Shown: positions 55,676 to 58,519 of the stretch, in pieces | Layout: each line of letters begins with the position of its first letter | How positions within the stretch are numbered: position 1 is the first letter of the stretch | Origin: Streptomyces sp. ITFR-16 | GTDB taxonomy: Bacteria > Actinomycetota > Actinomycetes > Streptomycetales > Streptomycetaceae | Reading direction: 5' to 3' | Assembly (NCBI RefSeq): GCF_031844705.1 | Contig: NZ_CP134609.1 | Coordinates: 1 to 64,000 of the forward strand | DNA length: 64,000 nucleotides | Made by a program: the position numbers and the translations under genes | The notes under the pieces: model-generated | Told to the model about the DNA's origin: nothing | What the model saw: the letters and a program-made list of their open reading frames with translations, nothing else | Databases searched by the model: none

Positions 55676-55927
55676 CTACCTGCCCGTGCGGGGTGCGGGG
55701 ACCTTCGGCAGAAGCTCCCACAGGGGACGTCCGCCGCCGGCCCAGGCGGCGAGCGTCCGCCGGTCGGCCAGGTGCATCCGCAGTTGCGCGGCAAGTGGTG
55801 CGCAGCGGGTGGAGAAGCGTCCGTTGGTGACGACCAGGACGATGTCGGCGCCGTAAAGCTGGCGGGCGGTGCCGTTGACGCGCTGCAGATCGGGGGTGCC
55901 CACGGCTGAGCCGCGGTCGCCGTCCCT
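55676..55927 (-). CDS. Mrr-type restriction endonuclease, exon 2
   Basis: 84 codons ending at TAG 55676. Reads RDGDRGSAVGTPDLQRVNGT, YGADIVLVVTNGRFSTRC and HLADRRTLAAWAGGGRPLWE: the second half of an Mrr_cat (PD-(D/E)XK-type) domain. Joined after intron removal to exon 1 (58067-58519) it gives a 234-aa protein with no frame change; the splice junction would read ...QCKHR-RDGDR.... Confidence 0.85.
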   Translation of the reverse strand, partial: RDGDRGSAVGTPDLQRVNGTARQLYGADIVLVVTNGRFSTRCAPLAAQLRMHLADRRTLAAWAGGGRPLWELLPKVPAPRTGR

Positions 55928-55968
55928 GTCGGGTAGGTCCGGCGCATCGCTGCGCCAGACCCCCCTCA

Positions 55969-56002
55969 GAACCGTGCGTGCGCCTCTCAACGCACACGGC
56001 TC
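55969..56002 (-). ncRNA. Group II intron domain V
   Basis: A 34-nt hairpin read leftward: GAGCCGTGTGCG, a TTGAGA tetraloop-closing turn, then GGCGCACGCACGGTTC. It has the AGC catalytic triad near the 5' strand, the lower GAGCCGU/ACGGUUC stem and the expected bulge. It overlaps the stop codon of the HNH part of the intron protein. Confidence 0.9.
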
Positions 56003-57425
56003 AAGCGGGCTGCGAGGCCCGCGCAGTAGGTGCCCTACGGTCGCCACGGGCATGGAGTTCCCGATGGCAGTCTGCGTGAATCAGCTCCAGATTCGACCTG
56101 TCGTCTGCTCCTCCGTCACGGCGATACACGATATGATGCACGTGCAGTCGCTTTGACGAAGCCGAGAACCATTGGACCCACTCGCGTACATCCTGTGGTT
56201 CGAATTCGGCGCCCTCGATCAGGTCTAGTCCGCACCTTGGGCAAAGTCCCTTCTGCCGCACAGCCATCCCGATGTTTCGCCTTCTATCAGCATCGGGATG
56301 CTTGCGACCCCGGGATCGGCTGGCCCAGTATGCGGTCAGGCTCGGGTCGTCCTTGGAGGCCCGCCCCTTGACCAGCTTGTGCCGCACAATTCTGGTCCAA
56401 CTGAATTTGATGAGATATGCACCGGTCTTAAGATCGCCGAACACCCATCTATCTCGCCTGTGGAGGTGTATTCACCCCAGTAATGGGCGATCCTCCACAG
56501 TCGTCCCTTGTTTCGATGCCTTCGCATGGCCCACAACCAGAGTCGCTGGAAAACATAAGAGTCCAGCGCCGCGAAGATGTTACTGGAGACGACCCCCCGG
56601 TAGTAGGTTGCCCATCCTCGGATGATCGGGTTGAGCTTGCCGATTAGAGCAATGGTCTCCCAACCATCCATGCTTCGGATGCGCTCCTTGAGCGTCCGGA
56701 TGAGTCGCTTAACGGCATCTCGACTCGGCCGGATGATCACCTTGCCGTTACGCATACGCTGGATGTTGAACCCAAGGAAGTCGAATCCTTCACTGAGGTG
56801 GACCACGCGGGTTTTATCCTCATTGAAGGCAAGTCCCGCCCGGGGCGAAGCTGTCATGACGCCATCAGCACCATCCACACAGTCACTTCGGGGAAGCGCA
56901 CGAAGCGGCTGGGAAGCCGTAGCTCCTCGCTTCGAAGCGAGCCTCCCATTCAGGTTCCAGGGCGTTCTTCGCCCTGGCCTGATGCACTCGATCCCTAATG
57001 ACCGGGATTCCCAGGGGCCGCATTTTGCCGTTTGACTTCGGAATGTATACACGCTTGACGGATTTGGCTGCGAGACCAGTCTCGGATGCCAGCTCCTTGA
57101 TTAGGCGCTGTCGCTCCGAGGGAGTAAGGGCGGTCTCGCCGTCGACGCCCGCCGTATTCTTTCCCTTGCTCGTCTGCGTCACTCGTCGCACACTCACGAC
57201 GAGGTTCGAGTGTGAGCGCAGCATGAGCTTTTGAAGGTTCCGTACCTTCTTGAGGTCACCTTCTTGCGCGGCTCTAAAGATTCGCTGTCGAAGTCGCCTT
57301 ACGTTCGCCTCGGATTTCGCCCATTCGGATATGGGTGGCCTGCCGATCACGCCCGAGGGTCCGTTCGCCGACTCTGGCGACAGTCGTACTGTCGTCGACA
57401 TTCTGACCGCCGCTCCTTTCGGCAT
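56001..57425 (-). pseudogene. Group II intron reverse transcriptase-maturase-HNH protein, broken
   Basis: N-terminal RT_N domain from 57425 (LRQRIFRAAQEGDLKKVRNL, GKNTAGVDGETALTPSERQR, VYIPKSNGKMRPLGIPVIRD) stops after ARFEARSYGF near 56910. The next RT motif (RPGRSCHDAISTIH) is on the opposite strand at 56836-56880, and the polymerase core including YADD is absent. The frame resumes at about 56850 (GLAFNEDKTRVVHLSEGFDF) with the maturase (GIIM) domain (GWETIALIGKLNPIIRGWAT). A frameshift near 56450 then separates it from an HNH nuclease domain (LCPRCGLDL, HVHHIVYRRDGGADDRSNLE, HADCHRELH). Confidence 0.85.
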
Positions 57426-58066
57426 CTAACTTATACCTCGATACAGACTTCTCGCAGTTTGTCTTTTTCCGCCTACCTGATCCGCGTGGGCCCCCTTTTC
57501 GGGTTCAGGTATCTACCTGATATCCGCCGAGTTATAGCCGGGGCTGGAGGTAGCCATTCCCGGTCATTTCCTCTGGGCTTTCGCCGTGGCGGCATTCGCT
57601 TCTCGGATCATCCTTTCCCGCAAAGGGGTTAGGTCTTCGTTACCTCCGACTTACCGCAAATAGCGGACCTTTACGGGGTTTCACGTTCCGCACTATTCAG
57701 GTACGGCGCGGTTAGGACGCCCCCTCTGCACCGAGTCCCATGGTGATCTCGTGGTCGTTTCGTCGCCTTCCACGCACGTGGCGGTTCCCTCCGCCAGGAC
57801 TTGCCATCGCGCTCGCTTAGTTCCTCGTCGGCGCGAAGTTGCATTAACGATGCGTTGCACCAGGGATTCACTTTCGTTCGTCCTTCCGGCCTTCCCCTTC
57901 GCCTGTTCCCCGCGACGAGACAGGGTCTTGGGCTTTTACATTCGGCTCAGGACGCCCCCGTTGCCAGAGATGCCCCCGAATGTGGGGATCGGCATTGATC
58001 ACTTGCCGAAGGCGGAGCTTTCCTCCTTACTTTCCGCCCACTGAATAGTGCGACTTCGTGTCGCAC

Positions 58067-58519
58067 GCGGTGTTTGCACTGGATGACCCAGGTGCGCCCG
58101 TGGGGGTCGGTGGCCAGGACGTCGGCTCCGTTGTCGCCGGCTCCGCCGATCTGCCGGGCGTCGGTGCATCCGTCGCGGCGCATCAGATCGCGGACGGCGT
58201 ACTCGAAGTCGCGGTGGTGCAGGGCGTCCAGCTGCGGGAGCCCGTAGCGCAGCGCCTGCTGCCGCACGCGGTCCCAGGCCCGTCGCTGCCGGTAGCGGTG
58301 GGCCCACCAGACTCCGCCCACCGCCGCGACGGCGCCGAGGAGGATCAGGACCCACCAGTTGTTCACCAGCCACGAGATGACGGCCCATGCCACGGCGGCG
58401 GTCAGGGCGCAGGCGGCGAGCAGCGGCACCGGGGTTTCGCCCTGCCGCCGCCTACGGGTGCGGTAGGTACGGCGACGGGGTGCGGGGCGGCGTCGTTGCG
58501 GGCGGCGCGTGGCCATCAA
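58067..58519 (-). CDS. Mrr-type restriction endonuclease, exon 1
   Basis: 151 codons from ATG 58519. A very basic N-terminus (RRPQRRRPAPRRRTYRTRRR) is followed by two membrane segments (LLAACALTAAVAWAVISWLV, WVLILLGAVAAVGGVWWAHR). The start of an Mrr_cat domain follows: DFEYAVRDLMRRDGCTD, IGGAGDNGADVLATDPHGR (catalytic Asp) and WVIQCKH (the QxK motif). The last codon before the intron is CGC. Membrane-anchored Mrr-like proteins of this layout are common in Streptomyces; they probably cut foreign or modified DNA. Confidence 0.85.

Follow-up and report, generated by a model that had tools for sequence, protein, structure and literature searches.

A broken group II intron splits an Mrr-like nuclease gene in Streptomyces sp. 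ITFR-16

Group II introns are genetic parasites of a kind that normally splice themselves out of RNA. One of them, Ll.LtrB, differs from the intron described here in being mobile and in having an active intron protein. Ll.LtrB is reported to lower the expression of its host gene, which encodes a relaxase (PMC6003770), and a review of the bacterial introns places most of them outside housekeeping genes (PMC4424553). The same review names C.te.I1 of Clostridium tetani as one lone intron without any protein (PMC4424553), and according to a 2022 survey ORF-less introns have increased in certain genomes (PMC8919778). Copies of RmInt1 in Sinorhizobium meliloti 1021 have been described as undergoing inactivation (PMC4496777).

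The window analyzed in this study is a stretch of 64,000 nucleotides of the Streptomyces sp. ITFR-16 genome, in which an Mrr-like nuclease gene is confirmed to be split by a group II intron (Table 1). The intron is placed after codon 150, and the two open exon frames rejoin in frame to a protein of 233 residues followed by the stop codon; the 234 residues given in the initial annotation are corrected accordingly, counting from the ATG at 58516. Its description of the junction agrees with ours: exon 1 ends with CAG TGC AAA CAC CGC, the intron begins with GTGCG and ends with CCCGAC, and exon 2 resumes in the same frame with AGG GAC GGC and completes the Mrr_cat domain. The intron divides this domain (PF04471) between profile positions 57 and 59, and both halves match the profile. 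Exon 1 comprises a hydrophobic N-terminal stretch (approximately residues 28–73, from hydropathy) and then the first half of Mrr_cat. The unspliced frame encodes 189 residues, of which 150 are nuclease residues, including QCK, and 39 are encoded by the intron; this product lacks the second half of the Mrr_cat fold.

Table 1. Positions in the window of the split gene, the intron RNA elements, and the remnants of the intron-encoded protein
Feature	Positions	Strand	Description
Exon 1	58067..58516	-	150 codons from ATG 58516, to QCKHR; PF04471 1-57
Group II intron	55928..58066	-	2,139 bp, GTGCG...CTACCCGAC; basis: RF00029, empty sites, shared termini
EBS2-type element TGCA	57840..57843	-	intron nt 224-227; possible partner TGCA at exon -12..-9
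EBS1-type loop	57755..57769	-	intron nt 298-312; best IBS1 match GCG with CGC (-3..-1)
EBS3 position	57726..57726	-	intron nt 341, G; exon +1 = A, mismatch
Remnant 1	56895..57380	-	RVT_N + RT start; L034 residues 11-174; enclosing ORF 57425-56883
Inverted RT-domain piece	56834..56923	+	RPGRSCHDAI...; L034 residues 167-196
Remnant 2	56465..56845	-	end of RT + maturase domain GIIM; L034 residues 314-438
Remnant 3	56034..56459	-	linker + HNH nuclease domain; L034 residues 441-582
Domain V	55969..56002	-	34 nt, GAGA tetraloop; RF00029
Linker + domain VI	55928..55968	-	ends CTACCCGAC; RF00029
Exon 2	55676..55927	-	83 codons + stop (at 55676), second half of Mrr_cat; PF04471 59-114

The insertion site is cleanly empty in relatives. 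When the joined exons are aligned to nine loci (L045–L053) of eight related genomes, the junction is gap-free, and 119 of the 120 listed homologues (of 1,213 matches) are gap-free over residues 143–159, the lone exception, P0113, being the window's own unspliced frame. Alignment of homologues over the junction, which had been proposed earlier as a check, therefore does not refute the split. The 5' GTGCG and 3' AC termini, together with the exact empty site in relatives, are as expected of a group II intron. A degenerate pattern of the filled junction gave seven stretches in 84,980 species genomes, a set that may not include the window's own genome; by record title none was from Streptomyces, and they were taken as chance rather than as the same intron at the same site elsewhere.

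Asp132, Gln146, and Lys148 are present in all 120 listed homologue rows, including the window fragment P0113, and these D...QxK residues presumably form the catalytic motif of the Mrr-like nuclease. The nearest listed homologue is P0001 of Streptomyces sp. LN549, whose catalytic half matches the joined product at 134 of 138 residues. With the PADLOC model mREase_IV, for type IV methyl-directed restriction enzymes, three homologues gave partial matches (E 5.8e-6 to 5e-4), and P0036 scores better with a ZorD model; a search for relatives of the joined protein among solved structures returned none at E ≤ 0.01. At E ≤ 1e-30, the gene occurs in 51 of 150 genomes of the genus, this one included. Outside the window's own genome there are 57 matches; 55 of them extend beyond the junction, and the remaining two, both from genome G098, end at residue 151. 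An intron splitting the G098 copies at that residue was considered and rejected, as the frame changes at 143/144 and no intron is present. The gene family appears to tolerate loss: among the same 57 matches, frameshifts occur in both copies of G098 and in-frame stops in one row each of G147 and G077. For codons 76–232, pN/pS between the window exons and L045–L053 is 0.14–0.26, compared with 0.16–0.29 between L046 and the other eight copies, the higher values in both sets belonging to the more distant genes. The window exons look conserved and alive.

A second, more distant Mrr-like match is located in the same genome at G000:C1:7796955-7797329 (42% identity over residues 92–219, in an open frame of 316 residues), ~105 kb from the other contig end, and this gene could cover for the interrupted one. 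On contigs of known length longer than 5 Mb, a hand count placed the nearest Mrr-like copy within 15% of an end in 14 of 16 genomes (G000, G004, G040, G049, G057, G066, G080, G088, G098, G100, G101, G158, G171, G253, G308, and G347), where about five would be expected from an even distribution. Copies near the contig middle are those of G057 and G080 and the second copy in G088. In G098, the two frameshifted copies are found at opposite contig ends, at distances of ~4.2 kb and ~0.5 kb.

The Rfam model of domains V and VI, RF00029, matches 56004–55928 with 61.4 bits (gathering score, 40) and is the sole Rfam match at the gathering threshold within the window; domain V has the position assigned in the initial annotation. 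The GTGCG start and the CTACCCGAC end, with the same nine last bases, are common to all 24 introns measured. All 40 invariant columns of the 3' part are retained, and domains V and VI are complete. In the 5' part, the window intron differs at 6 of 123 columns that are invariant in the other introns, tied for the most, and with a 95% cut it departs at 15 of 178 near-conserved columns, the highest number, followed by 14 of 177 and 14 of 180. When the consensus structure is predicted without the sequence being scored, 125 of 137 strong consensus pairs are formed in the 5' RNA, a lower value than in any of the other 20 introns, the next being 126 of 137 and 127 of 138. RF02012 (domains I–IV) gives 25.9 bits against a gathering score of 34, which relatives often miss as well, since it is reached by 4 of 11 loci in one set and 12 of 19 intron loci in another. 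The ribozyme appears a little worn, not ruined, because the 3' columns are intact and the 5' pairs only slightly below those of the next introns; with domains V and VI complete and a 5' core close to that of the next introns, it may therefore be functional. The GC-to-AT bias of the departures (16:1 in the window) was set aside because the relatives lean in the same direction.

The intron ORF is broken. It is present in three pieces that carry RVT_N with the start of RVT_1, then GIIM, and then HNH, and the RT-maturase model TIGR04416 matches positions 1–101 and 240–353 only. As compared with the intact protein of L034, the nearest long match, the remnants lack residues 197–313 (~117 residues) and with them the YADD site, the frame of remnant 2 differs from that of remnants 1 and 3, and one piece of the RT domain is inverted (versus L034, a DNA match of 76 bp at 71% and 57% protein identity with E 0.0017). 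The 23 related introns for which both ends were found span 2,492–3,518 bp and all keep Y[AVG]DD in their longest ORF, whereas the window intron has only 2,139 bp and no such motif. The intact RT-maturase of a mobile group II intron is thus missing, and the intron is, as judged from its sequence, no longer functional as a mobile element. The possibility that the protein has decayed neutrally over a long time was considered and rejected, as the remnants retain the codon-position pattern of a functional gene, with a ratio of 0.45–0.56 (18 pairs) as against a mean of 0.58 in the relatives (147 pairs).

A substitute maturase was sought in the complete genome, which comprises 8.12 Mb in three contigs, is rated 100% complete, and contains one copy of the intron. 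RF00029 has a single match, with no other group II intron among the 150 of 367 candidates that were scored. The RVT_1 profile (PF00078) has no match in the genome, in a search that also missed the window's own short RVT_1 stub, and GIIM has one match only, with no second domain of this kind. With the intact L034 protein as the query, the genome gives the window remnants and nothing else at E ≤ 1.

Recognition of the exons was compared among the 21 introns with distinct junctions, three duplicates of the 24 having been dropped. EBS3-IBS3 pairing is described as a feature of IIB and IIC introns (PMC4424553), and intron nucleotide 341 pairs with exon position +1 in 19 of the 20 other introns, consistent with the covariation expected of EBS3-IBS3; in the window, the two form a G-A mismatch. 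The other non-pairing intron is L074, where the place of the downstream "exon" is taken by another intron, starting with GTGCG. The same scan located EBS1 and EBS2. EBS1-IBS1 has at most three contiguous pairs, four of six overall, and EBS2-IBS2 has four (TGCA-TGCA). Against random sites in the same flanks, these give p values of 0.53 (EBS1), 0.37 (EBS2), and 0.30 (sum), in a test that is weak because many related introns also score at chance: p < 0.05 is reached by 4 of the 19 other introns with EBS1 alone and by 8 with the sum. The EBS/IBS match to the exon, also proposed earlier as a check, speaks mostly against the interpretation in the initial annotation, and exon recognition of the window intron looks poor. 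In reported in vitro assays of RmInt1, EBS3 mutants GG and CC ligate exons less but the AA mutant does not (PMC4238363), so that a non-pairing EBS3 need not block splicing.

L034 is one of the Streptomyces mobile RT-maturase-HNH introns and shares with the window intron the termini, domains V and VI, and the protein domains where these are preserved; two long DNA stretches are 68 and 65% identical. Among the matches listed from 392 genomes of the genus, the longest are 68–69% identical and shorter ones reach 76%. A search of 297 genomes of the family with the 3' 983 bp of the intron gave only the intron itself at E ≤ 1e-60, a cut-off that would exclude even L034 (3' part, 8.4e-42). Of 89 plasmid records that match the intron, none covers more than 80% of it in one place, and 18, all outside the 20 matches listed, are 80–95% identical in their best place. 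Related introns are thus common in Streptomyces and on Streptomyces plasmids. The host-gene pieces of ten of the 23 relatives were examined, and nine have Pfam matches, to unrelated proteins: short-chain dehydrogenase, Uma2 (below cut-off), HTH_32, DUF5753, aldo/keto reductase, JmjC_2, DDE transposase, integrase, and RT. Several rejoin in frame, and in the dehydrogenase and Uma2 hosts the intron is inserted at the start codon. The initial annotation regarded an insertion of this kind as unusual; this holds for bacterial group II introns in general, as they are described (PMC4424553, PMC6003770), but in this Streptomyces family, with its nine unrelated Pfam hosts, insertion inside genes is ordinary.

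Several insertions of the relatives have features of their own. In 3 of the 23 introns (L034, ~4220/1700; L037, ~2057/4592; and L044, ~1669/5186) the insertion splits an ATG start codon as A^TG; these represent two distinct targets, as L037 and L044 share one. A GGAG stretch resembling an RBS is located upstream, where IBS2 is expected, and such introns may use translation-start signals as a target. L072 and L073 each lie within another RT-like ORF, in its FDFLGF stretch, an intron-in-intron arrangement (the L072 host is RVT_1 by Pfam and that of L073 was read by eye), and immediately after L074 a second intron copy starts with GTGCGACGTG. In L043 and L064, from two genomes, the intron interrupts an aldo/keto reductase gene at an identical position, which looks like homing.

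We consider it the most probable account, and one held with moderate confidence, that the gene interrupted after codon 150 is poorly spliced at best and mostly inactive, because the intron protein is broken and the genome searches revealed no substitute maturase. A mobile intron, from a family that is common in Streptomyces, would have reverse-spliced into the Mrr-like gene, its protein having lost the RT core at insertion or before arrival through a deletion accompanied by an inversion and a change of frame. With the maturase gone and the exon pairing weak at EBS1 and EBS3, the precursor would mostly stay unspliced and yield the 189-residue product. The insertion and the breakage are probably recent because neither the exons nor the protein remnants have the signature of long neutral drift. 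The constraint data would fit equally with both events being young or with a gene that stayed useful. The proposal in the initial annotation of a restriction enzyme that depends on efficient splicing is not supported, as the RT-maturase is defective and the genome searches revealed no second one.

A less likely but still plausible alternative is that the ribozyme continues to self-splice, unaided or with a general host factor, sufficiently to keep the nuclease made, as a splicing-only element like C.te.I1. The intact domains V and VI, the near-normal 5' core, the in-frame rejoining, and exons without relaxed constraint are all consistent with this, and C.te.I1, which is reported to splice in vivo and to self-splice in vitro, provides a precedent (PMC3919590). 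However, the EBS3-IBS3 mismatch, the weak EBS1, and the loss of the maturase argue against it, group II excision in vivo is described as protein-dependent (PMC4238363, PMC3919590), and exons that look fresh are equally expected of a young insertion. A bolder form, in which the lone maturase-less intron splices by its own RNA despite the broken EBS3-IBS3 pair and determines how much of a membrane-linked Mrr-like nuclease is made, is put forward as a speculation that we think unlikely. If true, it would be the second maturase-free case after C.te.I1 and, to our knowledge, the first such intron over a DNA-cutting enzyme. A search of one literature library, in titles and the starts of abstracts, found no account of a natural group II intron within an Mrr gene or a Streptomyces restriction gene.

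Splicing in trans, by a maturase encoded outside the assembly on a plasmid or element since lost, or by a further protein that the searches missed, is improbable. Help from a related intron protein is reported in a cyanobacterium (PMC4424553), and related introns are common in Streptomyces and on their plasmids, but within the coverage given above the genome has no other RF00029, RVT_1, or GIIM match, and the intact L034 protein matches nothing else in it. An assembly error, either in the intron protein or as the insertion itself, is more improbable still, for although a single genome is known with this intron copy and an indel error could account for the small shift of frame from remnant 2 to remnant 3, a deletion of ~117 codons with an inverted flank and exact intron termini would be atypical of such errors in a genome of three contigs rated as complete.

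Under the preferred reading of a young insertion that has lost its maturase, the window intron is a known kind of element in a rare state. As a lone case with fresh exons and a freshly broken protein, it would allow splicing and silencing to be measured directly against each other, and it would address the step between a mobile parasite and a splicing-only intron. Like C.te.I1, whose genome lacks any intron-encoded protein (PMC4424553), it is located in a genome in which no intact one was found; C.te.I1 is reported to self-splice robustly with a shifted 5' splice site (PMC3919590), whereas the window intron, whose splicing is probably weak, still contains the remnants of its protein. Like Ll.LtrB in the relaxase gene of Lactococcus lactis, it occupies a gene whose product depends on splicing (PMC6003770). 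Like the copies of RmInt1 in S. meliloti 1021, it appears to be undergoing inactivation, but there three full-length copies are described with impairing mutations (PMC4496777), and in the window the change is a large internal rearrangement.
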